Source: Deefgea piscis (GTDB lineage Bacteria; Pseudomonadota; Gammaproteobacteria; Burkholderiales; Chitinibacteraceae). From it: a stretch of 64,000 nucleotides of DNA. The stretch spans positions 1,736,001 to 1,800,000 of the forward strand of contig NZ_CP054143.1 of the NCBI RefSeq assembly GCF_013284055.1. The letters run 5' to 3'. The notes under the pieces are model-generated. The model saw only the letters and a program-made list of their open reading frames with translations. It was not told the DNA's origin and made no database searches. Of the stretch, positions 4,936 through 36,905 are shown piece after piece. Each line of letters begins with the position of its first letter. Position 1 is the first letter of the stretch. The position numbers and the translations under genes are program-made.

Positions 4936-4982
4936 GGTATATGGCTGAATTACTTTTCTTTAAACGCCTTTATGAATATACC
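4936..4982. repeat. 47-bp palindromic element, copy 1
   Basis: Ends GGTATAT and ATATACC form a 7-bp terminal stem; total length is exactly 47 bp. It begins 14 bp after the DUF2069 stop. One of six intergenic elements of identical length in the window (others at 11994, 22131, 25534, 29495 and 36859). Confidence 0.7.
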
Positions 4983-5057
4983 CATGATTTAGTGCTAATT
5001 AGGTTTATTGTTTCGGCTTGAGCTGCTGCAAATACACCGCAGGATAGATAGAACAAT

Positions 5058-5084
5058 GCCCCGCTGGATCGCAGCGGGGCTTTG
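5058..5084 (+). terminator. Putative intrinsic terminator
   Basis: Nine-bp G+C-rich stem GCCCCGCTG/CAGCGGGGC (5058-5066, 5072-5080) with a GATCG loop, followed by TTTGTAGTTT. It is the likely end of the wrbA-DUF2069 transcript; the T-run is short. Confidence 0.5.
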
Positions 5085-5291
5085 TAGTTTATGCGTTCGG
5101 TTTCTTCAGTTGTGGTTTAGGTTCACCAGACTGAAAGCTTGAGCGCGCGCAATTTGTGATTGCTGCCTCCGCCAATCGATGGGGTGGTATCGATCGGTGC
5201 CGTATTTCGCAAATGCTTGCCATTGAGCAGTACCAAAAAACGTGCTGCTCATCGACAAAAACGTAGTTGATGGCGCTGTAAATGCATCAAC

Positions 5292-11993: not shown

Positions 11994-12040
11994 GGTATTG
12001 GGTTGTGGGGCTTGCCTGTAAATACCTACAGGCAAATACC
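11994..12040. repeat. 47-bp palindromic element, copy 2
   Basis: Ends GGTATT and AATACC, total exactly 47 bp. Inside it has a strong stem TTGCCTGTA/TACAGGCAA (12012-12020, 12027-12035). It fills most of the ilvH-ilvC spacer, so it is transcribed within the operon and could affect mRNA processing or ilvC expression. Confidence 0.7.
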
Positions 12041-16649: not shown

Positions 16650-18113
16650 TTAGTTTTGGCGACTACGGAAAAAAGCCAGTACTAACAGTGCCAGCAACAA
16701 GCCAATTACGGGTTTATCACCGGCCCATTGATACGGGGTATGGCCTTGCATATGGCGAACTTCGCCTTCTAAAACCGCTTGGGTTTGCTCGGGCAAGCTG
16801 CTCACAATTCGGCCTTTGGCATCAATAATCGCCGTTTTACCGGTGTTGGTGGCGCGGATGAGGTAGCGGCCGTTTTCGAGCGCTCGGGCGCGCGCCATTT
16901 GCGCGTGTTGCTCGGCCGCCCAAGAGCCATCAAACCACGCCATATTGGTAAAGTTCGCCAGTAATGTCGCATTAGCGGCGTTAATGCGGATTTCGTCACC
17001 AAAAACGTCTTCGTAGCAAATATTAGCGGCGATCAGCCCGCCATTCATCGTCAATGGCGCTTGCGCCAGTGGTGCGCGCTGAAAACCGCTCATTGGCATC
17101 TCAAGCATTTGATACGCCCAGCCAAATAGCCACGGCAGCGGAATGTATTCTCCAAAGGGCACCAAGTGTGATTTGGCGTATTGCTCTTGGGCTGGGTTGG
17201 CTAAATTCACCACTGAATTTTGATATTGATCTGGCTTTGGCCCGCGCGTGGCCACGCCCATTAACAGCGTGGCGGATTTTTGCTGAGCGATTTGGCGTAG
17301 TTCTGCCAGATAGTCGGGCGGTATCTCGTTAAAAAACGACGGAATCGCCGTTTCGGGCAGCAAGATCAGTTGGCCTTGGGCGGCTTGGCTGAGCGTGAGA
17401 TAGCTTTTGAGGCTGTCAAAATAAAAGTCAGCATTCCACTTCATGCTTTGCCCGATATTGCCCTGCAAAACGCTGACTTTGAGTGGCTCGCCGATGGGGT
17501 AGGTCCAATTGATTTTTTGCAGTAATTGGCTGCTACTGAATAATGCAATCGCCAAACCAAGCGCGAGTTTTTTATCCAATAAAAATACGCCAACGCATAA
17601 AGCCATTAACCAACCTGCGCCATAGCTGCCAATAATAGGGTATAGCCCGCCAAGCCAATCAATCTGTGCGCTACCGACCGATGCCCAAGGAAAGCCAGTA
17701 AACAGCCAACCGCGCAGCCATTCACACAAAATAAACATCGTTGGCGCAATCAGCGTAAAGCGCCAGCTATCGCGGCAGGGTATTTTCCATGTGAGCCAGC
17801 CAGCCAACATTGGAAACAAGGCTAAATAAGTCGCAAACAGCAGCACTGCGCCAGCCGCCGCTGGCGCTGGCATTTTGCCGTGGGTATGTAGACTGATGTA
17901 AATCCAGCCGGCATTGGCAACGAAATACCCCAGCCCCCAAGCTAAGCCCGGCCATAAAGCTTGCCGTGCAGAACCGGCTTTTTGCCAGCCGGTAAATAAA
18001 ATCCACAGCGAAATTGGCAGCAGCCAAAATTGCGATAAAGGCGCAAAAGCGGCCACAGCGCTAGCGCCGGCAAGGCATTGAATGAGTAGGAATAGATAGC
18101 GATTTTTGGGCAT
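16650..18113 (-). CDS. lnt: Apolipoprotein N-acyltransferase
   Basis: Inner-membrane enzyme adding the third acyl chain to lipoproteins. The N-terminal half has about six membrane segments and the C-terminal half is a periplasmic nitrilase-like domain. Visible triad elements are Glu in LLPETAIPSF, Lys in the ARGPKPDQYQNS to HLVPFGEYIPLP region and Cys in NICYEDVFGDE. A final hydrophobic segment (IGLLLALLVLAFF) closes the protein. 487 aa is a typical length. It is last in the miaB-phoH-ybeY-corC-lnt cluster. Confidence 0.95.
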   Translation of the reverse strand: MPKNRYLFLLIQCLAGASAVAAFAPLSQFWLLPISLWILFTGWQKAGSARQALWPGLAWGLGYFVANAGWIYISLHTHGKMPAPAAAGAVLLFATYLALFPMLAGWLTWKIPCRDSWRFTLIAPTMFILCEWLRGWLFTGFPWASVGSAQIDWLGGLYPIIGSYGAGWLMALCVGVFLLDKKLALGLAIALFSSSQLLQKINWTYPIGEPLKVSVLQGNIGQSMKWNADFYFDSLKSYLTLSQAAQGQLILLPETAIPSFFNEIPPDYLAELRQIAQQKSATLLMGVATRGPKPDQYQNSVVNLANPAQEQYAKSHLVPFGEYIPLPWLFGWAYQMLEMPMSGFQRAPLAQAPLTMNGGLIAANICYEDVFGDEIRINAANATLLANFTNMAWFDGSWAAEQHAQMARARALENGRYLIRATNTGKTAIIDAKGRIVSSLPEQTQAVLEGEVRHMQGHTPYQWAGDKPVIGLLLALLVLAFFRSRQN

Positions 18114-19692: not shown

Positions 19693-20649
19693 TTATAGAT
19701 TGCGTTTTGCTGCGGCTTTTTCGTAAGCAGTGACAATTTTTTGCACCAGTGGATGGCGCACCACATCAGCGGCGGTGAAGTGGTGAATGCCTATGCCACG
19801 CACGCCGAGCAAGACTTCTTGCGCGTCGGTAAGGCCGGATTTTTGATGCTTAGGCAAATCGACTTGCGTCGCGTCGCCGGTAATCACCGCTTTGCTACCA
19901 AAACCAATCCGCGTTAAAAACATCTTCATTTGTTCTGGCGTGGTGTTTTGCGCTTCGTCCAAAATAATAAAGCTGTGGCTTAGCGTTCGGCCACGCATAA
20001 ACGCCAGCGGGGCGATTTCGATAATTTGTTTTTCAAATAACTTGGTGACTTTTTCTACGCCCATTAAGTCGTACAGTGCATCGTACAGTGGTCGCAAATA
20101 CGGATCGACTTTTTGCACTAAGTCGCCCGGCAAAAAGCCCAGCTTTTCACCCGCCTCAACGGCGGGGCGAACCAAAACTAATCTTTGCACGGTATCTCGC
20201 TCTAGCGCATCAATGGCGCTGGCTACCGCCAGATACGTCTTGCCAGTACCAGCCGGGCCAATGCCAAAAGTGATGTCGTTGTCGGCAATGGCTTTGATAT
20301 ACACATTTTGCCCCGGCGTGCGCCCGCGTAAATCACCACGTTTGGTGCGCAATTGCGGCACGGTAGGGTCGATAATTTGTGCGTTGGGATTACGCAAGAT
20401 TTCCATCAAACCCAATTGCACTGCATCGACGTCGAGTGGCGAGGCGCTGTCTTCGTAAAAACATTCCAGCGCATCGAGCGCCTGACGAACTGATTTTAAT
20501 TCGCCGCTGACGCGAAACGCTTCATTGTGGCGATGCACCGTGACATCAAACGCCACTTCGATTTGTTTTAAGTTTTCATCCAGCGCGCCACATAAATTGG
20601 CCAAACGCAGATTATCGATGGGCGTGAAATGCAGAGTTTCTGTATGCAA
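19693..20649 (-). CDS. ybeZ: PhoH-like ATPase (YbeZ)
   Basis: Cytoplasmic P-loop NTPase of the PhoH family. Walker A is GPAGTGKTYLA, Walker B FIILDEAQNTTPEQ, and the later GDATQVDLP motif is also present. An N-terminal KH-like part (residues 1-100) is typical of YbeZ, and 318 aa fits. It starts with TTG and has AGGA about eight bases upstream. It is cotranscribed with miaB and ybeY; YbeZ is known to partner with YbeY in RNA metabolism. Confidence 0.93.
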   Translation of the reverse strand: MHTETLHFTPIDNLRLANLCGALDENLKQIEVAFDVTVHRHNEAFRVSGELKSVRQALDALECFYEDSASPLDVDAVQLGLMEILRNPNAQIIDPTVPQLRTKRGDLRGRTPGQNVYIKAIADNDITFGIGPAGTGKTYLAVASAIDALERDTVQRLVLVRPAVEAGEKLGFLPGDLVQKVDPYLRPLYDALYDLMGVEKVTKLFEKQIIEIAPLAFMRGRTLSHSFIILDEAQNTTPEQMKMFLTRIGFGSKAVITGDATQVDLPKHQKSGLTDAQEVLLGVRGIGIHHFTAADVVRHPLVQKIVTAYEKAAAKRNL

Positions 20650-22114: not shown

Positions 22115-22602
22115 GGCTTTCTTCTATAGGGGTATTGGTTTTACTGCTTTTATCAACAAGGGCTGCATAGCAATACCCTTGGAAGGCAATAAAATAAGAA
22201 TTTTCTTTGAGCCACTGGGCGTAATGCCAGCAAAGGCTAGGGCGTGATTTTAACGCAAATCGACTCGCAAGCGGCGCTCTTATGACATGGGATTTGTTAC
22301 ACAGAGATGAGCAGCGGCAATCAAGAACTCGCCGCCGATTCATGTCATGCAACTGGCAGCGGCAGCGAGTATTTTTGCGGCAAGAGTTGGTGCTGAGATT
22401 CGTCGCCCCCGCGCAGCGAAAGCATCACTGCGTAGGCAGGGGGATTTTAAGTGCTACGTAGGCGATGACGCTGCGCTCATCGCCCCGATACTGTCCGTGC
22501 AAAAGTTTGCGAGCAAGATGTTGAAGCTGTAAACAGTTGATTGAGTACAGCAAGTCGGAACAAGGGCGCAAGACCGCTTTGGCTTCATTATGGATGAGCG
22601 CG
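22115..22602. other. Non-coding stretch upstream of miaB
   Basis: Besides the 47-bp element it has degenerate short repeats of the type CTACGTAGGCGATGA with CTCATCGCC (about 22450-22485). No open frame with a plausible start or product was found. Confidence 0.45.
22131..22177. repeat. 47-bp palindromic element, copy 3
   Basis: Ends GGTATTG and CAATACC give a 7-bp stem, total exactly 47 bp, within the presumed miaB leader, 16 bp before its start codon. Confidence 0.7.
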
Positions 22603-23556: not shown

Positions 23557-23609
23557 TTTAGAAATCCCTTTTATTTGTAAATGGTTTTTTAAACCTGAGT
23601 CAATGATTT

Positions 23610-23818: not shown

Positions 23819-23843
23819 GAATCAGCTGATTAACTTAAATCAA

Positions 23844-24272
23844 TTAACCTTGGCAAGATTTAGATGCTAGTTTCAATTTGGTTGCCGCATCTGCTAAATC
23901 AGATGCACATGTCCAAGCGCCATCATTTGCACGAGTTAAGGTGATTTTTTTACCTGCAACTGTTGCTGGACCACCAACAATAGTACATACAATAGTGCTT
24001 CCTGTTACAGTTGTTGTGCAATTGCTAGTTGAACCTTTTAAGCCAACTAAAGCTAATCCAGCGGCATCTGCAGTAATTGCTACACCATCATTCAGTTGAG
24101 AATCAAAGCCTGTTTTGCCTGCGGCAATTTCAGCTTGAGCTGAGGTGAATTTAGCTTTTGCGGTGTAGTCTTGATATGAAGGTATCGCAACTGCCGCTAA
24201 AATACCAATAATTGCAACGACAATCATTAGTTCGATTAAAGTAAAGCCTTGCTGTGCTTGTTTCATGTTCAT
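23844..24272 (-). CDS. Type IV major pilin-like protein, copy 2
   Basis: 142-aa prepilin with class IIIa leader MNMKQAQQG, then [18 protein letters not shown] with Glu5. The globular domain has the same cysteine layout as copy 1 (SNCTTT, IVCTIV, WTCASD, KSCQG). It starts 52 bp after copy 3 without its own sigma-54 motif, so it is probably read from the copy 3 promoter. A perfect A/T hairpin (TAATTTTTT/AAAAAATTA) lies in the spacer. Confidence 0.93.
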
Positions 24273-24324
24273 GATTTAACTCCGAGTTTAAATGTATATT
24301 TAATTTTTTATTTAAATTAAAAAA

Positions 24325-24762
24325 TTAGCCTTGACAGCTTTTTGACCCAAGAGTGGCTTTGTCGCCCGCAGCTAGATCCGAAGAGCATACCCAGCTTCCA
24401 TCAGCAGCCGTACGTGTGTAAGTAATTTTTTTACCAGCTACCGTAGCAGGGCCACCATTAATAGTACAAATCATGGTGCCATCGGTACCATCAGCAGCAA
24501 CAAGTGTTACTACATTTGTGGTGCAGTTTGCAGTACCTTGTTTAAAGCCAACTAAAGCTGTTGTTGGTGGGACGCCATCGTTTAAAGACGCATCAAATGC
24601 AGTTTTACCAGCAGCTACTTCAGCCTGTGCTGCAGTAAATTTCGATTTGGCTGTGTAATTTTGGTAAGAAGGAATTGCCACCGCAGCTAAAATACCAATA
24701 ATTGCGACGACGATCATCAATTCGATGAGTGTAAAACCTTGCTGTGCGCGTTGCATGTTCAT
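24325..24762 (-). CDS. Type IV major pilin-like protein, copy 3
   Basis: 145-aa prepilin, first of the tandem array, leader MNMQRAQQG before [18 protein letters not shown]. It has four cysteines (ANCTTN, MICTIN, WVCSS, KSCQG). The N-terminal 60 residues are almost the same in the three copies while the globular parts vary, the pattern expected of duplicated pilins. A near-perfect sigma-54 promoter lies upstream. Confidence 0.94.
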
Positions 24763-24803
24763 TCTCCGAAAGTTAGGTAGTCATTCTGACTTGAAACATG
24801 ACA

Positions 24804-24819
24804 TGCAACTATCGTGCCA
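24804..24819 (-). promoter_or_regulatory. Sigma-54 promoter of the pilin array
   Basis: TGGCACGATAGTTGCA on the minus strand matches the -24/-12 consensus TGGCACG-N4-TTGCW exactly. The predicted start is about 30 bp before the copy 3 ATG. Confidence 0.85.
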
Positions 24820-24979
24820 GCTTTTTATAGTTGTTTTATTGACAGATAATTAGAGGTGATTTGTAAATTTTGCCGTAAAACGTCACTTTGTTTGACTGAT
24901 TTTGGCAGTAAGTAGGGGCTAAACATTAGCTAGTAGCTGCGATTGGCGTAGTGTAATCGGAGACACATATTATTTTTGC

Positions 24980-25024
24980 GGTCGCTTCATGCGCGTAAAT
25001 ACGCTGCGCTATTCGCAACTACAT
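24980..25024. repeat. GCTTCATGCG...ATTCGCA repeat, copy A
   Basis: CGCTTCATGCGCGTAAATAC then GCTGCGCTATTCGCAACTAC, close to the copy at 25876-25919 but with a less perfect stem. It lies just after nrdG. The rest of 24820-25061 shows nothing else. Confidence 0.55.
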
Positions 25025-25061
25025 TTCCCACAAATCCTAAATCCCCATACACAGCCGCAAA

Positions 25062-25532
25062 TTAATTATCACCACCACGGCCACGGTAGTTTCTGAGTTC
25101 GATCAGGCGTTGGTTGCTGGAACCGCGCCAGGGTTGGCTGGTGGGGTGGTTTTGTTCGAATTTGCCGTCGATGAGCACGTCGATGTATTGCAAGATGGCG
25201 AGGTCTTGTAGGTCTTCGAAGACGTAGCCGGTCCAGAGCCAGATGTTTTTTTCGGGGTAGCGTTGTTTAAAGGCTTGGCAGAGTTTGAGGATGGCGTCCC
25301 GATTGGCGGGGTGCAGCGGATCGCCGCCGGATAGACTCAGGCCATCGTGCGTTGCACAGGCTTGTAATAGCTGTTGCTCGATTTCGGCGGTGAAGGCTTG
25401 GCCGGATTTTCTATCCCATGTCGATGGGTTGTAGCAACCTTCGCACGCATGTTGGCAGCCGCTGACAAACAGCGTCACGCGGATGCCGGGTCCGTTGATG
25501 AGATCATGCGTGTAATAGCGGTCGTAATTCAT
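25062..25532 (-). CDS. nrdG: Anaerobic ribonucleotide reductase activating protein
   Basis: Radical-SAM enzyme that installs the glycyl radical on NrdD. The iron-sulfur motif is SGCQHACEGCYN (CxxxCxxC), followed by SGGDPLHP; 156 aa is typical. It lies 403 bp after nrdD with repeats between. The start codon is directly preceded by a 47-bp palindromic element that leaves one base before the ATG, and no Shine-Dalgarno is visible. Confidence 0.94.
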   Translation of the reverse strand: MNYDRYYTHDLINGPGIRVTLFVSGCQHACEGCYNPSTWDRKSGQAFTAEIEQQLLQACATHDGLSLSGGDPLHPANRDAILKLCQAFKQRYPEKNIWLWTGYVFEDLQDLAILQYIDVLIDGKFEQNHPTSQPWRGSSNQRLIELRNYRGRGGDN

Positions 25533-25533
25533 G

Positions 25534-25580
25534 GGTATAGCGCTGTGGGCTTTTCGTTAAAATGCGGGTATGGGTATACC
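25534..25580. repeat. 47-bp palindromic element, copy 4
   Basis: Ends GGTATA and TATACC, exactly 47 bp, one base upstream of the nrdG ATG. It therefore occupies the ribosome-binding region of nrdG. Confidence 0.7.
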
Positions 25581-25636
25581 TGTTGTTTATGATCGTGTTC
25601 AGATTGTGTGTTGATGGTGGTTATAGCATCGCGGCA

Positions 25637-25738
25637 TTCCCTCTCCCTTGATGGGTTAGGGTGAGGGTGATACTACCGAGTATATTTTAAGCTCAACACC
25701 CCCATCCCAGCCTTCCCCCATCAAGGGGGAAGGGGCTG
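25637..25738. repeat. CCCTCTCCC/GGGGGAAGGGG extragenic repeat
   Basis: CCCTCTCCCTTGATGGG at one end and CCCCATCAAGGGGGAAGGGG at the other are roughly complementary. It resembles a widespread proteobacterial intergenic palindrome. It lies between nrdD and nrdG. Confidence 0.55.
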
Positions 25739-25875
25739 CAGTCGATTTACTCAAGCAGTTGTGATTTAACGTCGCAACAGCCCATCTGAACAAAGCCTGT
25801 GTTTTTCGGTTAGCTGCGATGGGCTTCGCATCATCGCAGGCATTGCCGCGCCAACAGCGCATTTTAATTTCTGCA

Positions 25876-25919
25876 GCCGCTTCATGCGTGCGAATACGCT
25901 GCGCTATTCGCACCTACAC
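25876..25919. repeat. GCTTCATGCG...ATTCGCA repeat, copy B
   Basis: Contains the perfect stem GTGCGAATA/TATTCGCAC (25888-25896, 25905-25913) around CGCTGCGC. It lies 17 bp after the nrdD stop, matching the place of copy A after nrdG. Confidence 0.6.
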
Positions 25920-25935
25920 TTTTCCCAACTCCCAA

Positions 25936-28089
25936 TCACTCAACAGTCTGCGCGTGGTGTTTAACTCGGCGCATGACTTCTTTTTGTTTGCCGTTGTTAA
26001 ACGGTCTAGCGTTGGGGCTGCCGAGGTAGCCGCAGACTCGGCGGGTGACCGATAGCGTGGCGCTGTCGTGGTTGCCGCAGTCTGGGCAAACAAAACCGTT
26101 GGCGGTGGCGAGGGTTTCGCCCATAAAGCCACAAGCGCCGCAGGCGTCAACCGGCGTATTACTGCCAAAATACGGCACACGTTCGATGGCGTAATCCCAA
26201 ATGCGTTCGAGTGCCAATAGATTGTGCTTCATATTGGGCAGCTCAACATAAGTAATGTGGCCGCCGGTCGCGAGCTCGGCATAGCCGGTTTCAAAGTCGA
26301 TTTTTTCAAATGGATTGACTTTGCGATACACGTCCAGATGGAATGAATTGGTGTAATAGCCTTTGTCGGTGACGTCGCTAATGTCGCCAAAGCGTTCTTG
26401 GTCGAGTTTACAAAAGCGGTAGCACAGCGATTCACTGGGCGTGGAATAGAGCGAAAAGCCAAAGCCGGTTTCTGCTTTCCAGCGCTGCGTGGCATCCCCC
26501 ATGGTTTTGACCACATTGTGCAAAAAGGCTTGCGCTGCGCTGGCATCGGCAGGGTGTTGACCAAAAAGTAATACGCCGACTTCGTGTAAACCGATATAAC
26601 CCAAAGAGATCGAGGCACGACCATCTTTAAATAGCGTCATGATGTCGTCTTGCGGCTTAAGTCGAATCCCAAATGCGCCTTCGGTATACAAAATCGGGGC
26701 CACATTGGCTTTGACGCCTTGCAGACGTTGGATGCGAATATTGAGTGCGCGTAAGCACACTTGCAGGCGCTGCTGTAATAACTGATTAAATTGCTCGATA
26801 TTGCCTTGCGCTTCAATGGCAATGCGCGGCAGGTTCAGGCTGACTACCCCTAGATTATTGCGGCCGTTAAGGATTTCTTGGCCTTGTTCATCGCGCCAAG
26901 CGGGCAAAAAGCTGCGGCAACCCATAGGCGATACGGGCACGCTAGAGCCAGTAATTTGGCGATTGAGCTTGGCCGAGATAATGTCCGGATACATGCGTTT
27001 TGAGGTGCATTCAAGCGCCAATTGTTTGATGTCGTAATTGGGATCGGTGGGCTTGAGGTTGATGCCTTCGTCGATAAAAAACACCAATTTAGGGAATACC
27101 GGTGTGGTGCCTTCTTTGCCCAAGCCTTTAATTCGCACCCGCAAAATCGACTGCTGAATAATCCGCTCGGCCCAGCTGGTGCCCATGCCGAATGAGAACG
27201 TCACAAAGGGCTGCTGACCGTTAGAGCTAAATAGCGTGTTGATCTCATATTCACACGCTTGAATGCCGTCGTAGGCTTCTTTTTCGGTGCGCTCGGTGGC
27301 GTAGCGTTCTGGGTCGGTAATGCCGTATTCATGGGCAATGGCTAAATTTTTGGCATGGCTTTTTAGTACATACGGCGCTAGCACTTGGTCCAAATTGGGA
27401 ATGGTGGTGCCGCCATATTGATGGCTGGCCACTTGGGCGATAATTTGCGCGGTGACCGCACAAGCTACACCAACGGATTTAGGGCTTTCAATTTTGGCAT
27501 TGCCAAGGCGAAAACCGTTTTTGAGCATGCCTTCTAAATCGACGAGGCAGCAATTGGTCAGTGGCAAAAACGGTGAGTAATCCAAATCATGAAAATGGAT
27601 ATCGCCTTGGTGGTGCGCTTCTAAAATATCTTTGGGCAAAAAGGTGCTGGCAAATTGTTTCGAGACAATGCCGGCCATCAGGTCGCGCATCACCGGAAAC
27701 ACATTGGCGTCTTTATTGGCGTTTTCCGTAGTGGCTTCGCTGTCGGTTTTATTCACTAAGCCCATCAGTTTGGCGTGTAGCTCAGAGCCTTGCGCGCGCG
27801 TGCGATCTCTATCGTAGCGATATTGGATATAAATCCGCGCCACTTCGGGGTAATCATGCATCAAGGCGTCTTCGACCCATTGCTGAATCGTTGGAATATC
27901 TAATAAGCCGGCAGGAGCATTGTGCTGGCTCATCGTGCGGCATTGCGCTTCGACTTGGCTAGTGATTTGCTCGGCCAATTGTTCTGGCTGCGGGTATTTC
28001 GCAGCAGTGGCAGCGCGGCGGCAGGCTTCAAAAATTTTGGCACTGTCGTAGGCGGCTTTGGCACCGTCGCGTTTAATCACTTTGAGCAT
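25936..28089 (-). CDS. nrdD: Anaerobic ribonucleoside-triphosphate reductase
   Basis: Class III glycyl-radical enzyme reducing ribonucleotides to deoxyribonucleotides without oxygen. Domains: N-terminal ATP-cone (residues 1-95), catalytic barrel, a CGACGFMG plus CPDCG zinc-type Cys4 site, and the C-terminal glycyl-radical loop RVCGYLGSPNARP. 717 aa is normal. AAGGA precedes the ATG. The upstream region carries FNR- and NrdR-like sites, so expression should rise without oxygen and be repressed by NrdR; this is inferred from the motifs. Confidence 0.96.
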   Translation of the reverse strand: MLKVIKRDGAKAAYDSAKIFEACRRAATAAKYPQPEQLAEQITSQVEAQCRTMSQHNAPAGLLDIPTIQQWVEDALMHDYPEVARIYIQYRYDRDRTRAQGSELHAKLMGLVNKTDSEATTENANKDANVFPVMRDLMAGIVSKQFASTFLPKDILEAHHQGDIHFHDLDYSPFLPLTNCCLVDLEGMLKNGFRLGNAKIESPKSVGVACAVTAQIIAQVASHQYGGTTIPNLDQVLAPYVLKSHAKNLAIAHEYGITDPERYATERTEKEAYDGIQACEYEINTLFSSNGQQPFVTFSFGMGTSWAERIIQQSILRVRIKGLGKEGTTPVFPKLVFFIDEGINLKPTDPNYDIKQLALECTSKRMYPDIISAKLNRQITGSSVPVSPMGCRSFLPAWRDEQGQEILNGRNNLGVVSLNLPRIAIEAQGNIEQFNQLLQQRLQVCLRALNIRIQRLQGVKANVAPILYTEGAFGIRLKPQDDIMTLFKDGRASISLGYIGLHEVGVLLFGQHPADASAAQAFLHNVVKTMGDATQRWKAETGFGFSLYSTPSESLCYRFCKLDQERFGDISDVTDKGYYTNSFHLDVYRKVNPFEKIDFETGYAELATGGHITYVELPNMKHNLLALERIWDYAIERVPYFGSNTPVDACGACGFMGETLATANGFVCPDCGNHDSATLSVTRRVCGYLGSPNARPFNNGKQKEVMRRVKHHAQTVE

Positions 28090-28197
28090 TGCTGTTTTTT
28101 CCTTGATGCGTAATCAGTGGTACAGGTATTGAGATTATTGGCTGACAGACATTTTGCTTTTGGCCTGTCATTTATTTGTGGCTTTATCTCGAAGCAA

Positions 28198-28213
28198 ACA
28201 CAATATATGGTGT
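28198..28213 (-). promoter_or_regulatory. NrdR box upstream of nrdD
   Basis: ACACAATATATGGTGT agrees with the NrdR consensus acaCwAtATaTwGtgt at all but one position. It lies about 110-125 bp before nrdD and just downstream of a TATAAA -10 on the minus strand (28214-28219), the usual place for repression. A second box at the normal ~31-bp spacing is not convincing. Confidence 0.7.
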
Positions 28214-28247
28214 TTTATACTTGCTTGCTGCACATAATGAGCTGCTT

Positions 28248-28261
28248 TTGATGATGGTCAA
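28248..28261 (-). promoter_or_regulatory. FNR/Anr-like site upstream of nrdD
   Basis: TTGATGATGGTCAA matches TTGAT-N4-ATCAA except for one base. It lies about 35 bp upstream of the TATAAA -10 at 28214-28219, close to a class II activator position. Confidence 0.6.
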
Positions 28262-28402
28262 TATTTGGTTTTTTTGTTTGGTTGAGGCCAAATAATGACA
28301 ATTTGTCGTGTTTATGCCGCGCCTTTGCACGGCTTTACTGGGCTGGCAAGCGTTGATGCTATGCTGAAAATCTCTTTGCAATATCTACAGAACGATCTGT
28401 TT

Positions 28403-29347
28403 ATGAAAAAATTACTGTTGGTTGTTTTGCTCGGTTTAAGCTGGCTGCCTGCGGTGTCGGCAAAGGATAAAAAAGAGCTGCATTTATTGCCCAATAGCAA
28501 TGTGCAGCGCAGCGCGAATGCGGTGTTGTCTTTGATGTCGTATTCGGTGATTTTGGATTTAGCCGCCAGTAGTTTGTCGATTAAAGGCTCACAAAGCGAA
28601 AATCAAAAATTAATGATGACGCAATTGGGCGGCGGCGCCACCATCAGCAAAGAGTTGCCCTTGTATTTGGAAGGCGCATTAGCTGGCAGCCGTTTTGACC
28701 CGACATTTGTCGCCACCAATGGTGAAGAAGAGCGTGCTATCCCATTGAAATGGACTTCTTTGAGCGGTACGGGCGGTATCGGCTGGGATTTTCCGATTGC
28801 AGAAAACTGGGTGCTGCGACCGATTTTTAATTTTTCACTGGGCACAGTGGCGAGTGATTTAAAAATCGCCAATTGGTGGGTTAATTATAAAACCGGTAAA
28901 GAGTTTAATTTTTTTGATAAAGGCAGCATGAATGTGTATGGCTTAGGCGGCGCTTTGATGCTCGATTACGAGCTGGTTAAGCCCGAATATGAAGTGGATT
29001 TAGAGCTGCGCCTATCGCAAGTGCATTTGCAAACGTTTAAAACTGACGATGCGGTAGCAGGCAGTGCCAATTCGCAAACCGCAAATCTATGGACGCGTTA
29101 TCGCGCCCCCACTGGCATGACTTTTTTAAGCCGTCCGCTGCGTTATGTTTTAGAAGCATCGCATTCACATTATTACGGCGATCAGGCTGGGGTATTGGGC
29201 TTTGATTATTTATCCACCTTGGGGCTGGGATTTGAAGTTGATAGCAGCGCCCATCCCGTGTTTGTAACCCGTACCCGCTTTATAATGCGCTATATGTTCG
29301 GCCCGAATGTATCAGGCTCTGGGATGAGTATTGCGATGAGTTTTTGA
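28403..29347 (+). CDS. Outer-membrane beta-barrel protein, hypothetical
   Basis: Signal peptide MKKLLLVVLLGLSWLPAVSA, then about 290 residues of alternating amphipathic beta-like strands ending with SIAMSF; a C-terminal Phe is typical of outer-membrane barrels. The layout resembles solitary autotransporter-type barrels without a passenger. The frame opens at 28295, but the signal peptide indicates ATG 28403 as start. No substrate or partner is evident; it faces away from nrdD. Confidence 0.7.
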   Translation: MKKLLLVVLLGLSWLPAVSAKDKKELHLLPNSNVQRSANAVLSLMSYSVILDLAASSLSIKGSQSENQKLMMTQLGGGATISKELPLYLEGALAGSRFDPTFVATNGEEERAIPLKWTSLSGTGGIGWDFPIAENWVLRPIFNFSLGTVASDLKIANWWVNYKTGKEFNFFDKGSMNVYGLGGALMLDYELVKPEYEVDLELRLSQVHLQTFKTDDAVAGSANSQTANLWTRYRAPTGMTFLSRPLRYVLEASHSHYYGDQAGVLGFDYLSTLGLGFEVDSSAHPVFVTRTRFIMRYMFGPNVSGSGMSIAMSF

Positions 29348-29386
29348 TGGGATTAGCTTTCAGCCAATATAAAAAAAAATGCCATT

Positions 29387-29464
29387 GTAGGGTGGAATAA
29401 GCACCGCGCATTCCACCTGGTCGCGAAGCTTATGGTGGAATGCACTTCGTTTATTCCACCCTAC
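29387..29464. repeat. Palindromic GTAGGGTGGAATAA repeat
   Basis: 78-bp element with perfect 14-bp ends GTAGGGTGGAATAA/TTATTCCACCCTAC and inner GCATTCCACC/GGTGGAATGC arms. It is an extragenic palindrome between convergent genes; a degenerate half is at 9983. Confidence 0.7.
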
Positions 29465-29494
29465 GGTTGGCCGATTTTAATTGCTTGATTGTTG

Positions 29495-29541
29495 GGTATT
29501 GCCATCTAAGCATTTAAAATTAATTGCTAGAAGGCAATACC
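29495..29541. repeat. 47-bp palindromic element, copy 5
   Basis: Ends GGTATTGCC and GGCAATACC form a 9-bp stem; inner AGCA/TGCT could pair. Exactly 47 bp, 42 bp beyond the hslU stop between convergent genes. Confidence 0.75.
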
Positions 29542-29582
29542 TTGGTAGTTGAAGTTTTAAATTCCAGCAGTTTGGCTGCGAT

Positions 29583-30905
29583 TTAAAGCATAAAGCGGGC
29601 AAGGTCGTCGTTGCTGGCGACGCTGGCAAGTTTGCTGCTAACAAATTCAGCATCAATGGTCACCGTACCGCGTTTAGCGTCAAACGAAATATCGGCGAGT
29701 AAACGCTCCATCACGGTATACAAACGGCGCGCGCCGATGTTTTCTGTGCTTTCATTCACTTGCCACGCCATGTGGGCCAGTTTGCGAATGCCGTCTTCGG
29801 TGTATACCAGCTCAACGTCTTCAGTCGCTAGCAAAGCTTGATATTGCTTGGCGAGGCAGGCATCAGTGCCGGTTAGAATGGTGGCGAAATCGTCCACTGT
29901 AAGTGAATTGAGCTCAACGCGAATTGGGAATCGGCCTTGTAATTCTGGAATCAAGTCCGATGGTTTGGCCAAATGAAACGCGCCAGAGGCGATAAACAAA
30001 ATATGGTCAGTTTTGACCATGCCGTATTTGGTGGTCACGGTGGTGCCTTCCACTAGCGGCAGCAAATCACGCTGTACACCTTGGCGAGAGACTTCGCCGC
30101 CTTGCCCTTCGGAGCGAGTGGTTACTTTGTCGATTTCATCGATAAACACAATCCCATTTTGCTCAACAGCGCGCAGCGCCTCGGCTTTGGTGTCTTCATC
30201 ATTGACCAGCTTGGCGGCTTCTTCGTCGATCAATGCTTTGAGCGCATCAGGCACTTTGAGTTTTTGCGCCTTGGTCTTTTCACTCATTGCACCTTTAAAC
30301 ATATTTTGAATCTGGCTAGAAAAGTCTTCCATTCCCGGTGGCGCAAAGACTTCCATTGTCGGTGCTGTGGCGGCGACTTGGATTTCGATTTCTTTGTCGT
30401 CAAATTTGCCTTCCCGCAGCATTTTTCGGAATTTTTGCCGCGTTTCGCTCATGCCATCATTGGCATTGACTTCGCCATAGGCTGGCGTTGCAGGTGGCAA
30501 CAGCACATCCAGTACGCGGTTCTCTGCGGCATCTTCGGCCTTGATGCGATTTTTGCTGATGGCTTGATCACGAACTTGTTTGATGGCGATTTCGATTAAA
30601 TCACGGATGATGCTGTCGACATCTTTGCCGACATAGCCGACTTCGGTGAATTTAGTCGCTTCAACTTTAATAAATGGTGCATCAGATAATTTGGCCAAGC
30701 GGCGGGCGATTTCGGTTTTACCGACGCCAGTTGGGCCAATCATCAAAATATTTTTTGGCGTGATTTCGCTGCGCAGTGGCTCGGCCACTTGCTGACGACG
30801 CCAGCGATTACGTAGCGCAATGGCAACAGCTTTTTTGGCTGCAGCTTGGCCGACGATGTGCTTGTCGAGTTCGTGAACAATTTCTTGTGGAGTCATTTGA
30901 GTCAT
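29583..30905 (-). CDS. hslU: ATP-dependent protease ATPase subunit HslU
   Basis: AAA+ unfoldase that feeds substrates to the HslV peptidase. Walker A is [11 protein letters not shown], Walker B IVFIDEID, with the inserted I-domain around residues 110-240. 440 aa is typical. The start has AAGGA eight bases upstream. hslV, which normally lies directly upstream in the same operon, is not here: the 289 bp up to the next gene hold no HslV-like frame. Confidence 0.96.
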
Positions 30906-31194
30906 TGCGTCGTCCTTAATTCATACGGTTTTGAATCACATCAGGGCATTTGGTAATTTTTAAAGGTCTGAATGCGACGGGTGACGACGCCGCTGGAATT
31001 GTTGTTGCGATTACCGATGTGCTTTCGGCTGTGATTAGCTCGTGCATTTCCCTGAATTTTGACTAATCTACTAAATATGGCTTGCGTGGAGATGACGTTT
31101 GCTTGTTTGAATCCTTGTTTCACAATGATTTAAATGTATAAAATTTTGCGTGTGTTGTAAGAGGCGACCACACGATGCGGTTTAACAGGGGCGC

Positions 31195-32766
31195 ATGATG
31201 ATTGATGATGAAAATTGGCTCGAAGAAGATACTGATTTATCGCTCCGTGCGGAGATAGAGCCGTGGAATGTACTGGTGGTGGATGATGAGCCCGATATTC
31301 ATCATGTGACCAAATTGGCCTTATCTAATATTGATTTTTTAAACCGACCGCTTAATTTATTGTCGTGTTATTCCGGCGCAGAAGCCTTGGATATGCTCAA
31401 TACGCGGGACGATATCGCCTTGGTGTTGCTCGATGTGGTGATGGAGTCAGAAGACGCCGGTTTAAATGTGGCGAGAGATATTCGCGAAAAACTACACAAT
31501 CACCATATTCGCATTATTTTACGCACCGGCCAGCCCGGTGTTGCACCAGAACGACACGTCATTGAAAACTACGACATTAATGATTACAAAGCCAAAACCG
31601 AGCTGACTCGCGATAAATTGTATACGGCGGTGCTAGGCACATTGCGCTCGTATAACGACATTATGTTGATTGAACATCAACGCCGGCAATTGGATGCCAA
31701 TCGTCGTGGCTTGATTAAAGTCGTCGATGCGTCGACGACGATCTTTAAGCAGCAATCGGTGATTAAGTTCGCGCAAGGCGTGCTTGAGCAATTGCAGTCA
31801 TTATTGTTTTTTGAACAAGACGCGTTGTATGTGGTGGTGACGGGTGGGCTGGCGGCTTTATCGCAAAGCGATGATTTAACCATTATGTATGCCACAGGTG
31901 GTTATCAGGCTTTTTGTGGGCAGACCTTGGCTGATGCCGAATTAAGTCGCTTAAAACCATCGATTGACGAAGCACTGGCGCAGCGACATAGCATTTTTGC
32001 GACAGACCATTTCATTGGTTTTTTTCAAGCACCTTATGGCTCGGTGAATTTACTGATTATTGATGGTCCGGTGGCGCTGTCGCATCCTGATTCCAATTTA
32101 ATCGATATGTTTTGTAAAAATGTCGCGATTGCGTATGAAAACTTGATGCTCAATAAAGAGATCGAAGAAACGCAGCGCAGCATTATTTATCAGCTGTCAG
32201 AAGTGATCGAAAATCGCTCCAAAGATACCGGCAAACACATTCACCGTATGGCTGAGTTTTCTTATGCGCTGGCCATTGAGCTGGGCCTGAGTGAAGAAGA
32301 GGCCGAGATTATTCGCATCGCCAGCCCCTTGCACGATATTGGCAAAGTCGGGATTCCGGATTTGGTGCTCAATAAACCCGGCGTTTTAGATGCCGAAGAG
32401 CGGGCGGTGATGAATACACATGCGCAGCTCGGTTATGAAATGCTCAAAGCGTCTAAACCACGGATTTTAAAAATGGCGGCCGTCATTGCCCACCAGCATC
32501 ATGAAAAATGGGATGGCAGTGGTTATCCGCAGCAATTGGTGGGTGAGCAGATTCATATTGCTGGGCGAATTATTGCTTTGGCCGATGTGTATGATGCGCT
32601 GGCGCATTCACGTTGCTACAAACCACCATGGTCGCGTGAGCGGGTGTTGGATGAAATTAAAGCCGGATCGGGTAAACATTTTGATCCGCAGGTGGTGGAT
32701 GCGTTTTTCCGTTGCTTACCAAAAATTGAAGAAATCAGAATGTCTTATCGAGATTACGCTGACTAA
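31195..32766 (+). CDS. HD-GYP cyclic-di-GMP phosphodiesterase response regulator (DUF3369)
   Basis: Receiver domain at about residues 24-140 with phosphoacceptor Asp80 (VLLDVVM), a DUF3369 middle domain (about 150-320), and an HD-GYP output domain: HDIGKVGIPD and HHEKWDGSGYP. It should hydrolyse c-di-GMP when phosphorylated. No kinase gene is adjacent. 523 aa fits this class. It is followed by a good terminator, so it is monocistronic. Confidence 0.92.
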   Translation: MMIDDENWLEEDTDLSLRAEIEPWNVLVVDDEPDIHHVTKLALSNIDFLNRPLNLLSCYSGAEALDMLNTRDDIALVLLDVVMESEDAGLNVARDIREKLHNHHIRIILRTGQPGVAPERHVIENYDINDYKAKTELTRDKLYTAVLGTLRSYNDIMLIEHQRRQLDANRRGLIKVVDASTTIFKQQSVIKFAQGVLEQLQSLLFFEQDALYVVVTGGLAALSQSDDLTIMYATGGYQAFCGQTLADAELSRLKPSIDEALAQRHSIFATDHFIGFFQAPYGSVNLLIIDGPVALSHPDSNLIDMFCKNVAIAYENLMLNKEIEETQRSIIYQLSEVIENRSKDTGKHIHRMAEFSYALAIELGLSEEEAEIIRIASPLHDIGKVGIPDLVLNKPGVLDAEERAVMNTHAQLGYEMLKASKPRILKMAAVIAHQHHEKWDGSGYPQQLVGEQIHIAGRIIALADVYDALAHSRCYKPPWSRERVLDEIKAGSGKHFDPQVVDAFFRCLPKIEEIRMSYRDYAD

Positions 32767-32800
32767 TCTATGCGTAAGGCGTGACTTTTACGGTTAGAAT

Positions 32801-32830
32801 GGGCGATTGTAATAAATCGCCCCTTTTTTT
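32801..32830 (+). terminator. Intrinsic terminator after the HD-GYP gene
   Basis: Stem GGGCGATT/AATCGCCC (32801-32808, 32815-32822) followed by C and seven T. Confidence 0.85.
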
Positions 32831-32983
32831 GCCGTTAGCAATCGATTGCTGGATTAAGTCGTGAAGCAAAATGTTTTTTGGCGTTGTTCTCTCGTCGTAG
32901 GCTACGGTCTGAGCAACGCTTTGCGTTAACATTTTGTCCGCGTCACTGAGTCAATCAATGGATTAAACCAAGGTCATGCGCCA

Positions 32984-34510
32984 ATGAATAAAGACTACCT
33001 CGAACGAACACTCTCAGCCCGTGTATACGATGTTGCGATTGAATCGCCGCTAGAGCACGCTCCGAATTTATCTCGTCGTATTGGAAATACGGTGTATTTC
33101 AAGCGCGAAGATATGCAGCCAGTGTTCTCGTTTAAAATTCGTGGCGCGTATAACAAAATGGTGCAGTTATCACGCGCGGATTTAGAGCGTGGTGTGATTG
33201 CCGCCTCGGCGGGCAATCACGCGCAAGGTGTGGCGATGGCCGCGCAATATTTAAAATGCCGCGCAACGATTGTGATGCCAGCCACTGCGCCGCGCATTAA
33301 GGTGGACGCAGTTACGCGCCGAGGTGCTGAAGTGGTGCTGATTGGTGATTCTTATTCTGATTGCTACGAACACGCGATGAAACTAGCGGCGCAATCGGGA
33401 GCCACTTTTGTGCATCCTTATGATGATCCCGATGTGATTGCTGGGCAGGGCACAGTGGCGATGGAAATCTTACGCCAACATCCTGATCCGATTGACGCGG
33501 TGTTTATTCCGGTGGGTGGTGGTGGCTTGCTGGCGGGTATGGCGGCATATATCAAACGTTTGCGTCCAGAAGTTAAAGTTATTGGCGTTGAGCCTACTGA
33601 TGCCAATGCGATGTATTTATCGCTTAAATTGGGCGAGCGTATTACTTTGCCGCAAGTGGGTATTTTTGCTGACGGCGTTGCGGTCAAGCAAGTGGGCGAA
33701 GAAACATTCCGCTTATCACAAGAATTTGTTGATGATGTGATCTTGGTTGATACCGACGCGATGTGTGCGGCGATTAAAGACGTGTTTGAAGACAATCGCT
33801 CGATTTTAGAGCCTGCCGGCGCATTGGCCATTGCGGGGATGAAGGCGTGGGCGGCACGAGAAGGCGCTCAAGATAAAACTTTTGTGGCGATTGCTTCTGG
33901 TGCCAATATGAATTTTGACCGTTTGCGCTATGTTGCAGAGCAAGCCGAAATGGGTGAGCAGCGCGAAGCGATTATGGTGGTTACGGTGCCGGAAAAACCG
34001 GGTAGTTTCCGCACCTTCTGCAGCTTGATTGGCGCGCGTAATGTCACTGAGTTTAATTATCGCTATGCCAAAGAAAGCGAAGCGCATGTGTTTGTTGGCT
34101 TGTCGATTCAGCATCGCTCCGAAGTGGTGGATTTAATTGCCACCTTAGCAAGCCATGAATTGGCCGCGGTGGATTTAACTGACAATGAATTGGCTAAATT
34201 GCATATTCGCCATTTAGTCGGTGGGCATGCGCCGCAAGCGGTGAATGAGCGTTTAATTCGCTTTGAGTTTCCAGAACGCCCTGGCGCTTTGTTGAATTTT
34301 TTAAATGGTATGAGCGACAACTGGAATATTTCTTTATTTCATTATCGTAATCATGGCGCGGATTATGGTCGAGTATTGGTTGGGATTCAGGTGCCGCCAA
34401 GTGATGATGCCGAATTTAATGCCTTCCTAACGCGTTTGGCTTATCCGTATTGGTTAGAGACGCATAATTTGGCATACCAATTATTTTTGGGTACCGAAGC
34501 CGCGAGTTGA
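32984..34510 (+). CDS. ilvA: Threonine ammonia-lyase, biosynthetic
   Basis: PLP enzyme making 2-oxobutyrate from threonine for isoleucine synthesis. The PLP lysine is Lys51 in FSFKIRGAYNKM. The phosphate-binding glycine loop GGGGLLAG is present, and the last about 170 residues form two ACT-like regulatory domains (MVVTVPEKPGSFRTFC and FEFPERPGALLNFL) that bind isoleucine/valine. 508 aa matches the biosynthetic form. Its product feeds the acetolactate synthase encoded at 12-14.3 kb. Confidence 0.96.
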   Translation: MNKDYLERTLSARVYDVAIESPLEHAPNLSRRIGNTVYFKREDMQPVFSFKIRGAYNKMVQLSRADLERGVIAASAGNHAQGVAMAAQYLKCRATIVMPATAPRIKVDAVTRRGAEVVLIGDSYSDCYEHAMKLAAQSGATFVHPYDDPDVIAGQGTVAMEILRQHPDPIDAVFIPVGGGGLLAGMAAYIKRLRPEVKVIGVEPTDANAMYLSLKLGERITLPQVGIFADGVAVKQVGEETFRLSQEFVDDVILVDTDAMCAAIKDVFEDNRSILEPAGALAIAGMKAWAAREGAQDKTFVAIASGANMNFDRLRYVAEQAEMGEQREAIMVVTVPEKPGSFRTFCSLIGARNVTEFNYRYAKESEAHVFVGLSIQHRSEVVDLIATLASHELAAVDLTDNELAKLHIRHLVGGHAPQAVNERLIRFEFPERPGALLNFLNGMSDNWNISLFHYRNHGADYGRVLVGIQVPPSDDAEFNAFLTRLAYPYWLETHNLAYQLFLGTEAAS

Positions 34511-34538
34511 TTTTAATCTGACTATTTTTGTTATTTTG

Positions 34539-34572
34539 ATGGCAGGTGTTGTTTGGCACCTGCCATTTTTTT
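34539..34572 (+). terminator. Intrinsic terminator of ilvA
   Basis: Ten-bp stem ATGGCAGGTG/CACCTGCCAT (34539-34548, 34557-34566) followed by seven T. Confidence 0.9.
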
Positions 34573-34667
34573 ATGACGCTGTTCTTTTGTAACGATATCA
34601 CTTTATAGTGGCATGTTTATTTTGCGCTCAGCGCAAAGCATTATCATTGCCTAATCAATAGAGTGTT

Positions 34668-36857
34668 ATGTTTGAGCTAAAAAAATACACAGTTTTTATT
34701 GTGACGCTATTGCTTGGCTTGCTGTTCACGCTAGCGAGCATCAGCTTGTATTATTGGCAGGCCATTGATTCGGCGCGTGGTCGCTGGCAACAAAGCCAAG
34801 ATCAGTTAATAGCGCATTTTCGGACGCAATTAATATTGGCCCAGTCCGATTTGCAGCTCATTCAAGCGGCTTTTATCGCGCAAAATCAACTTTCCCCCGA
34901 GCAATTCAGCCAATTGCAATTACAAAGTCAATCCCGAAAAATCAGCACAGGCGTGCTGGCGATGGGCTTTGTGCGTCCGGTCTCGGCGGACTTTTTGCGC
35001 CAATATATTGAGCAAAATCGCAGCGATACTCGCTTTGCGACTGAGTTTTATTCGGTATTTGATGTCGCTAGCCCGCAGCAAAAAGAAGCCTTACAGATTG
35101 TGGATATGCTCAGCCCACTCAATAGTACGACTGCGCAGTGGTTGGGTTTTAATTTGGCCCATGATGCGGCGCTGAAACGCGCTTTAGAGCGTGCCAAAAG
35201 CAATGGTCAGCCGTGGATGAGTGATGGCTTTACTGCTAGCTTGGTGCGTACTGAGTCGTTGGTGATTTATTTACCGATTTATCGCAGTTTATTTAATCCG
35301 AGCACGCCTGCATTAAGAGCGAGTAATTACTTGGGCAGCGCCATTGTTTTACTACCCAGCAAACCTTTTTTTGCTGGGCTAGAGCGCTTGGCTGGCGCGG
35401 CGGGCTTGGCTTTTCGCGTCGTGGATCAGGGGCTCATTGATGCCGTGGGGCGAACAAAGGCCGCGGCAAAAATACGTTATACCTCGAGTCAATTTAAGCC
35501 AGAAGTGAGTGAGTCCTGGTCATTGGTGCCGCAGAATGTTTTGGGGCGGCAATGGCGGTTTGAATTTCAACCCATCGTCAGTGCCATCAGTTTGCAGCAA
35601 ATGCAGTTCATGACGTGGTTGGCGGTTTTGGGCTTGGTGTTTAGTTTGTTGTTGGCCAGCTTATTACAGCGTCGCACTCGCATGCCGCAGCCAGCCATGG
35701 ATGACAACGTCGACAAGCAAAGTTTGCGTTTAACTCCGGAGCTACCAACGCGTACATTACTTGAAGCGGTGAGTGACCCTTTGATATTGCGTGATGCACG
35801 CGGGCAAATTACTTACGCCAATGCCGTCGCCGAGTTGCGCTTGGCTCAGCATGACCGTAGTTTGCTTGGCAGCATTGATGCGGTATTTGATGCTGCTGAA
35901 TTAGGGCGATTAAGCATGCCGCAGCAACTGATGGTGAGCCATATTGATCGCGACGAACAAATGCGGCAGTACGAACTGATGCTCAAGCCCTTGCGTGATG
36001 ATCGCTTGCAGTGGATTGGTACGGTGATGCAAGCGCGAGATATTAGCGCCAGTTCAGCCACGATTAAATCCTTGCGTGAGCAAGTTGAGCGCTTAAGCAT
36101 GATGGTGGATATTTCCAATGACTGGTTTTGGGAACAAGACCGTGAAGGGCGATTTACTGCGGTATCGGGCGGGTTTTTTACTGATTTAGACATTAACCCA
36201 GCGCTGTTTATTGGCAAATGTCGCTGGGAGTTGGGCCAAGGCGGTTTATCGGCGGCGCAGTGGGCGGCGCATCGCGCGGTGCTGGCATCGCAACAAGCGT
36301 ATCGTGATTTTGAGTATCAAACCGAATTGAATCAGCAGTCGCTGTATTTAAGCGTTTCAGGTCGGCCCGTGTTTGACCATAACGGTGAATTTATCGGTTA
36401 CCGTGGTGTGGGCCGCAATGTGACGGCGATTCGCTTGGCGCAAGCGGCGCTCTTGGCTGAACAACAGCGCGCCCAAGCAACCTTGGCTTCGATTGTTGAT
36501 GGGGTGGTAACGACGGATTTAAACGGCCGGATTTATTATCTAAACCCTGTGGCCTCCGCCTTATTGGGCTGGGAGCCAGAAATGGCGCAAGGGCAATATT
36601 TAAGTTCGGTTTACCAAACCATCGACACCAAAACGCGCTTGCCGCTGGCGGGCTTAGCAGCATTGGCTTTGCAAAATTCAACCCCAGGCCAGAGCGCACG
36701 GCGCAGTATTTTACTCAATAAACTTGGCCTGCATTTTTATATTGAAGAAAGCGCTGCGCGAATTCGAGACGAAGCGCACGGCACTTTGGGGGCTGTTTTG
36801 GTGTTTCGTGATATTAGTAATTGGCAAGATGAAGAGGCGAGAGTGTTTGGGTTTTAG
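34668..36857 (+). CDS. CHASE-PAS sensor protein without recognisable output domain
   Basis: N-terminal membrane helix (about 9-30), periplasmic CHASE-type domain (about 60-290), second helix (about 315-335), then three PAS-like units (about 365-460, 480-590 and 600-720). The chain ends at ISNWQDEEARVFGF, where related proteins continue into GGDEF, EAL or kinase domains. None is present in frame or in the following 400 bp. The stop codon is one base before a 47-bp palindromic element. It may be a truncated enzyme or a sensor acting through protein contacts. Confidence 0.8.
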   Translation: MFELKKYTVFIVTLLLGLLFTLASISLYYWQAIDSARGRWQQSQDQLIAHFRTQLILAQSDLQLIQAAFIAQNQLSPEQFSQLQLQSQSRKISTGVLAMGFVRPVSADFLRQYIEQNRSDTRFATEFYSVFDVASPQQKEALQIVDMLSPLNSTTAQWLGFNLAHDAALKRALERAKSNGQPWMSDGFTASLVRTESLVIYLPIYRSLFNPSTPALRASNYLGSAIVLLPSKPFFAGLERLAGAAGLAFRVVDQGLIDAVGRTKAAAKIRYTSSQFKPEVSESWSLVPQNVLGRQWRFEFQPIVSAISLQQMQFMTWLAVLGLVFSLLLASLLQRRTRMPQPAMDDNVDKQSLRLTPELPTRTLLEAVSDPLILRDARGQITYANAVAELRLAQHDRSLLGSIDAVFDAAELGRLSMPQQLMVSHIDRDEQMRQYELMLKPLRDDRLQWIGTVMQARDISASSATIKSLREQVERLSMMVDISNDWFWEQDREGRFTAVSGGFFTDLDINPALFIGKCRWELGQGGLSAAQWAAHRAVLASQQAYRDFEYQTELNQQSLYLSVSGRPVFDHNGEFIGYRGVGRNVTAIRLAQAALLAEQQRAQATLASIVDGVVTTDLNGRIYYLNPVASALLGWEPEMAQGQYLSSVYQTIDTKTRLPLAGLAALALQNSTPGQSARRSILLNKLGLHFYIEESAARIRDEAHGTLGAVLVFRDISNWQDEEARVFGF

Positions 36858-36858
36858 G

Positions 36859-36905
36859 GGTATAACTTTCTAGGCTTTATTTGGCTTAGCTTTGCAAGTT
36901 ATACC
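36859..36905. repeat. 47-bp palindromic element, copy 6
   Basis: Ends GGTATAACTT and AAGTTATACC form a perfect 10-bp stem; exactly 47 bp. It starts one base after the stop codon of the CHASE-PAS gene. Confidence 0.75.

Follow-up and report, generated by a model that had tools for sequence, protein, structure and literature searches.

What are the short palindromic elements that recur in the DNA studied here, and what keeps them in place? A stretch of 64,000 nucleotides from Deefgea piscis (the window; its genome is referred to as G000, and positions are numbered from the window's first nucleotide) holds six elements, at 4936..4982, 11994..12040, 22131..22177, 25534..25580, 29495..29541 and 36859..36905, which a preliminary description suggested to be a separate structured unit of RNA or DNA, on the ground that their length is fixed and their interior varies. 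Their coordinates, GGTAT and ATACC ends and 47-bp length all prove exact, and chance would supply 0.09 such pairs at this span in the window (84 GGTAT × 66 ATACC / 64000). Here we describe the core of the element, its distribution among bacteria, its conservation and its placement, and we weigh what kind of machinery might read it.A bipartite core at a fixed span

Across a 1.26-Mb sample of the window's genome (58 evenly spaced 20-kb stretches together with the window and 35.6 kb drawn from two small contigs), inverted GGTAT/ATACC pairs occur 119 times at a span of 47 bp, 15 times at 48 bp and never at 46 bp; every other span between 10 and 124 bp holds at most six, and a reversed control word gives no peak. 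The length distribution thus singles out 47 bp, with pairs neither scattered over many lengths nor present at chance frequency. The whole genome carries 370 strict copies, against 2 of the reversed control. Variants with a single mismatch at position 1 number 129, where about 4 are expected, and those with a mismatch at positions 2–5 number 30, near the background of about 19, so that the core reduces to GTAT-N37-ATAC: the outermost G/C, at first counted among the fixed ends, is merely preferred, and the GTAT/ATAC core holds. This core is found 750 times in the genome (reversed control, 22). The sample holds 267 cores, where two other gap lengths give 4 and 8; at least one outer G is present in 248 of the 267. 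The preference at position 1 seems weaker in the species of another Deefgea genome, G023, where 259 of 911 cores have the outer G/C at both ends; in G000 the figure is 370 of 750.

Chitinibacter shows the same span, with 36 cores in 119 kb and 3 and 1 at the neighbouring spans. A smaller 48-bp class falls mainly in genes (29 genic and 5 intergenic copies), five of seven copies being kept in a second species, G021. A 51-bp span was considered as a further class; its six copies are unrelated in sequence and look like chance. Within intergenic copies the interior carries a weak, symmetric consensus (T11 in 62%, A14 in 78%, G15 in 53% and T20 in 79%, with their mirror positions), which is weaker in genic copies; the 'GCTTT-like patch' of the preliminary description forms part of this consensus. 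Orienting the sites by expectation maximization gave a replichore split with a likelihood no better than its null; the null itself was faulty, and the result is unused.

Three genera carry the sites

Among 43 genomes of the family, strict copies number 259–542 in seven Deefgea, six Chitinibacter and two Chitinilyticum genomes and 0–8 in the other 28. Only members of these three genera stand out among 250 genomes across the order, the others having at most eight strict copies, and a search of GTDB r220 contigs with a 20-base version of the motif returned 92 stretches, of which the 80 listed all belong to Deefgea, Chitinibacter or Chitinilyticum. The core itself occurs 580–975 times in all 15 site-bearing genomes, compared with 9–39 times (controls 2–50) in nine genomes from the family's other eight genera. 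A comparison of strict-consensus sites between the named genera found nothing. Viruses were considered as carriers and rejected: eight viral stretches match the motif in an 18-base version and hold one or two cores apiece, and none is a site-rich virus; seven of the eight are low in GC, and most share one sequence.

Ends are held while interiors turn over

Comparison of G000 with G021 over 419 kb, at 92.0% identity, finds that each of the 75 sites whose neighbours could be mapped is retained no more than 12 bp from its predicted position (three displaced by alignment gaps, all by at most 12 bp, are counted as kept), 11 of 86 being unplaceable; the same two words at other spans, held to a stricter base-by-base test, are intact in 112 of 198. 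In the reverse direction, none of 70 aligned G021 sites is absent from G000, and 23 are unalignable. Within 39 aligned genic sites none of 312 core bases has changed, where codon-position rates predict 25.3 changes, and third codon positions within genic cores are equally static (0 of 102 changed; background rate 18.9%). For 34 intergenic sites, by comparison, interior identity is 81.0%, against 86.7% in noncoding flanks and 92.4% in all aligned noncoding DNA.

The same pattern extends across genera. Syntenic spots in Deefgea and Chitinibacter have ends and span unchanged and a different interior, and of 51 placements of window sites in 12 other genomes, 50 are kept (27 of 28 in six Deefgea, 23 of 23 in six Chitinibacter), the sole loss being the site at 36859 in G022. 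No window site could be placed by this synteny test in the two Chitinilyticum genomes. The sites are under strong constraint. Because the core is unchanged in genic sites too and interiors diverge, the ends are held at the DNA level, genes included, and the interior drifts no more slowly than the DNA around it. A unit with fixed length and variable interior, as first proposed, is thereby supported, and the search of relatives and the conservation test suggested for it reveal a family in three genera kept at syntenic spots.

Placement along the chromosome

Gene calls from our own hexamer scoring (1229 genes, 88% coding) place 111 of the 267 sampled cores between genes, where 12% would be expected, and 156 in predicted genes, along which they are spread with no marked bias to either end; the earlier statement that all copies lie outside genes holds for the six first described and fails for the family. 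Among 109 classified intergenic sites, 8 lie between divergent genes (32.9 expected), 34 between convergent genes (21.2) and 67 between tandem genes (54.9). On the chromosome, sites occur in 57 of the 58 sampled 20-kb stretches (mean 4.40, variance 3.83), at a density of about one per 4.6 kb and with no parS- or matS-like clustering near origin or terminus; the small contigs have no core in the 35.6 kb sampled (20.0 kb of a 42.7-kb contig and the whole of a 15.6-kb one). Gaps shorter than 700 bp are rare (11 of 200, against 40.3 ± 5.3 of 209 simulated; one stretch, L056, is left out of the observed gaps and not of the simulated ones), and beyond this scarcity regular spacing is unsupported. 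The longest gap is 22.9 kb. L056 itself (contig C1 of G000, 1425–1445 kb) contains eight gaps of exactly 936 bp each between successive genic cores, pointing to tandemly repeated coding units.

Palindromic arms without a general need for pairing

The arms of the 111 intergenic copies pair at 7.96 of 18 positions, against 6.84 predicted from column frequencies (z = 6.1); those of the 156 genic copies pair at 5.18, against 5.23 predicted (z = −0.3). The covariation claimed for the arms is therefore a property of intergenic copies (n = 111) and not of genic ones. In the six original elements, positions 6 and 42 are complementary in every copy, as described, and positions 7 and 41 in four (TA, GC, GC, AT), the unpaired copies being those at 11994 and 25534. 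At the orthologous site 29495, aligned over 13 genomes, 83.8% of cells pair, against 34–43% when the partners are slid, none of 500 shuffles reaches the covariation score, and 32 cells have changed on both sides, against 14.0 in shuffles.

Since genic copies are unpaired and their ends are nevertheless no less well conserved than those of intergenic copies, arm pairing is not required of every site. Wobble pairs are not in excess in 67 sites oriented by transcription (GT+TG 95 against 105.4 expected; AC+CA 98 against 96.7), and no T-tract is in excess behind the sites (19 of 111 T-rich, compared with 595 of 4026 control positions). Ends held in genes too, covariation confined to intergenic copies and the lack of a G-U excess or T-tract together argue for a site in double-stranded DNA (dsDNA), not RNA, and on the same grounds an RNA element was rejected; of the proposed 'structured RNA or DNA unit', the DNA half stands and the RNA half is unsupported. 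The palindromic arms are most simply seen as a by-product: complementary ends held in place would favour hairpin-templated (quasi-palindrome) mutation, so that arms would come to match where no protein is encoded. The faster change of the interior relative to its flanks fits such a process.

A probable dsDNA recognition site with a possible architectural role

Judged from its sequence pattern, the element is very probably a bipartite, two-fold symmetric dsDNA recognition site read at both ends. The half-sites GTAT and ATAC lie 41 bp apart centre to centre, about four helical turns, across the 37-bp gap, and symmetry of this kind in DNA usually reflects a symmetric protein. Fixed symmetric half-sites, weaker inner preferences and single half-sites that are at most mildly enriched (497 against 380–488 in four controls; 86 against 57–68 in three) point to a symmetric complex holding both ends. 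Such a complex, a dimer of dimers or similar, would grip both half-sites at once and would bend or clamp the DNA between them; the ancestor shared by Deefgea, Chitinibacter and Chitinilyticum would have acquired it.

As to function, we lean, at slightly less than even confidence, towards a chromosome-wide architectural site serving nucleoid organisation, topological domains or supercoil control, because of the symmetry, the need for both ends and the avoidance of divergent promoters; the intergenic sites lie mostly behind genes, away from such promoters. Known chromosomal sites offer partial parallels. parS, matS and the SlmA- and Noc-binding sites (SBS/NBS) are dsDNA sites too, palindromes for the most part, each recognised by a dimeric protein dedicated to it; they are short and contiguous, with parS near the origin and matS near the terminus, unlike the 47-bp bipartite sites spread over the chromosome here. 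CdbA of Myxococcus xanthus is a nucleoid protein with 569 peaks in chromatin immunoprecipitation sequencing, genic and intergenic, about 35% of them intergenic (PMC7156744). The likeness lies in hundreds of chromosomal sites, in and between genes, for an oligomeric DNA-bending protein; CdbA, however, recognises a short direct repeat, and does so loosely (8917 genomic matches), whereas the present motif is strict and strongly conserved (PMC7156744).

Several observations weigh against the architectural reading or the dsDNA site beneath it. A search of the 43 family genomes that covered the ComP_DUS, ComEC, ParB_N and HU families found no cognate protein, and ParB_N has no consistent extra copy in the three-genus clade. 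At least four HU-family matches occur in all 15 site-bearing genomes, but also in 13 of the 28 site-less ones; a fourth HU-family paralog, whose model match is longer than that of the other copies (L302, L304–L307), is common to G000, G005, G011, G012 and the site-less G027, and is a weak lead because G027 has no excess of sites. The 59 genes with a site just before their start, inspected by eye without a family search, look ordinary and offer no candidate. Spacing is not regular overall (coefficient of variation 0.94, null 1.03 ± 0.10). Near-absolute conservation of single sites would seem to exceed the needs of a redundant architecture, given that the chromosome accommodates gaps as long as 22.9 kb and that G022 lacks one of the sites. 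Finally, a dsDNA site leaves the arm covariation unexplained, the mutational account being one that we infer: between the two species, double changes at true partners number 30 of 462, equal to the highest slid control (30), and those leaving both pairs intact number 7, against 0–3 in slid controls.

Self-DNA uptake as the main rival

The main rival, ranked below an architectural role and in our view less likely than not, holds that the 47-bp palindrome marks conspecific DNA for natural transformation, with biased uptake and recombination (molecular drive) spreading and preserving the sites, much like the uptake words of Neisseria and Haemophilus. Neisseria, in which DNA uptake sequences (DUS) are known, belongs to the same order as the site-bearing genera. 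DUS, and the uptake signal sequences (USS) of Pasteurellaceae, resemble the present sites in occurring in hundreds to thousands of copies, genic and intergenic, conserved, in permissive spots and lineage-specific. The core lies far above chance with a steep drop at one mismatch, its ends are almost fully conserved in and between genes, short gaps are rare and the sampled small contigs are free of cores. The motif is also highly conserved in a permissive context, all 75 placeable sites being kept amid noncoding flanks that diverge more than aligned noncoding DNA overall. This constraint pattern resembles that reported for DUS in one study, where DUS are about 97% identical and conserved surroundings about 85%, lie in permissive spots of the core genome and are missing from recent acquisitions (PMC2397512).

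Proteins of the ComEC and ComP_DUS families are present, but they occur in 43 of 43 family genomes, independently of the sites, and so competence genes do not discriminate. A pilus-tip receptor has no evident two-fold symmetry, and single half-sites are at most mildly enriched. Uptake words described so far are short and contiguous; DUS and USS cores are contiguous words of 9–12 bp, in contrast to two 4-bp half-sites in a palindrome with a fixed 37-bp gap. Among the 15 highest-ranked words of each length in 1.22 Mb, no over-represented short contiguous word of the uptake kind emerged: no 8-mer exceeds 7.5-fold, and the 10- and 12-mers are fragments of a CRISPR array. A CRISPR-like array lies near 2524.6 kb of contig C1 of G000 (L074) and has a repeat of about 36 bp and a 66-bp period, an 18-base part of the repeat occurring in 33 exact copies in the sampled DNA.

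A sister dialect was sought in 400 kb of the site-less G027, and no comparable word or inverted pair was found there: the best inverted pair reaches z 5.8, against 37 in an equal amount of G021. DNA that lacks synteny to G021 is just mildly depleted: 63 kb of it holds 9 sites, and 334 kb of syntenic DNA holds 75. A study of DUS dialects in Neisseriaceae lists five genomes in which none is obvious, and its text contains no word beginning with 'Chitini' (PMC3630211).

Folded DNA, RNA and mobile elements

A third possibility, an improbable one, is a DNA hairpin or cruciform unit, attC-like or another folded single strand on which a recombinase or HUH-type enzyme acts. It would account for the covarying intergenic arms, including the excess of two-sided changes at the orthologous site 29495, and for the many copies directly behind stop codons. 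Genic copies, however, have fully conserved ends without extra pairing, and positions are stable and syntenic across two genera, with no movement seen. Integron attC sites share few conserved end bases, variable complementary arms and a frequent position behind genes, but vary in length and require folding, unlike the present sites, whose span is fixed and whose genic copies lack pairing.

A structured RNA, or a transcription terminator or other 3'-end element, is very improbable. The preference of sites for 3' ends and convergent gene pairs, the hairpin arms and one terminator-like match overlapping the site at 25534 speak for it; that match is one of 32 in window positions 20001–40000, where shuffling predicts 31.6, Rfam gives no match in the window at its gathering threshold, and the missing wobble excess and T-tract and the location of more than half of the sites in predicted genes stand against it. 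Least credible of all is a decaying dispersed repeat of the miniature inverted-repeat transposable element, repetitive extragenic palindrome (REP/BIME) or Correia type: hundreds of palindromes with common ends recall one, but interiors are unrelated between copies, no dispersal by movement is seen, no site was gained or lost among those placeable between the two species, over half of the sites lie inside predicted genes and, contradicting this reading, the same syntenic spots are kept with rewritten interiors.

Sites within the window

The window contains 12 core sites, six of them genic. Among the intergenic ones, 4936..4982 begins about 15 bp past the stop of the gene at 4550–4921 (+) and 11994..12040 is flanked by two minus-strand genes, both being kept in G021; 22131..22177 lies 17 bp before the start of the gene at 20771–22114 (−) and is kept in G021 and G020. 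Two sites are at most 2 bp from a predicted gene end. One, 25534..25580, directly precedes the predicted start of the gene at 25062–25532 (−), and its spot is occupied in six other Deefgea and five of six Chitinibacter genomes. The other, 36859..36905, adjoins the stop of the gene at 34668–36857 (+) and is matched in five of six other Deefgea and six of six Chitinibacter genomes; both Chitinilyticum genomes have a site before the same downstream gene, and G022 (L093) has in its place unrelated DNA with a short GC-rich palindrome behind the gene. Between convergent genes, 29495..29541 occupies the same spot in all seven Deefgea and six Chitinibacter genomes examined, its arms rewritten and covarying. 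Adjoining it, at 29387–29465, is a multi-copy palindromic repeat of about 80 bp (GTAGGGTGGAATAAG...), with similar copies at several places in G021 and G022.

The genic sites comprise a seventh strict copy, at 17883..17929, and cores at 20191..20237 (kept in G021 and G020), 38456..38502 (present in each of the other six Deefgea and each of the six Chitinibacter genomes examined), 49445..49491, 53701..53747 and 60075..60121. Four genic members of the 48-bp class (GTAT-N38-ATAC) are also present: 41366..41413, 50771..50818 and 63885..63932 are kept in G021, and 60355..60402, which is not, may be a chance match. Elsewhere on contig C1 of G000, two 5.7-kb blocks near 1613–1619 kb and 1721–1727 kb are cross-matched to G021: each is about 97.5% identical to the G021 counterpart of the other. 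They are possibly rRNA operons.

Implications

Among the best-matching titles on the three genera, on palindromic genome-wide nucleoid sites and on palindromes or uptake sequences in the family, none showed a description of this element, subscription papers being mostly uncovered. We consider it probable that the sites form a genome-wide address code not described before, read by a clade-specific machine that needs two GTAT half-sites exactly 41 bp apart, and that this machine either organises the whole chromosome or marks it as self for transformation. About 750 sites per chromosome, with near-constant ends and rewritten middles, imply a strong and ongoing process at the DNA level. The architectural and uptake readings make opposite predictions, for occupancy in growing cells or for preference in DNA uptake. 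If uptake is the answer, self-recognition in transformation would have had an independent origin here, with a new palindromic, fixed-span design; if the role is architectural, these bacteria would possess a site that keeps a four-turn span and whose constraint can be measured. In either case, single sites within coding sequences are kept, down to synonymous positions, by selection or by drive.

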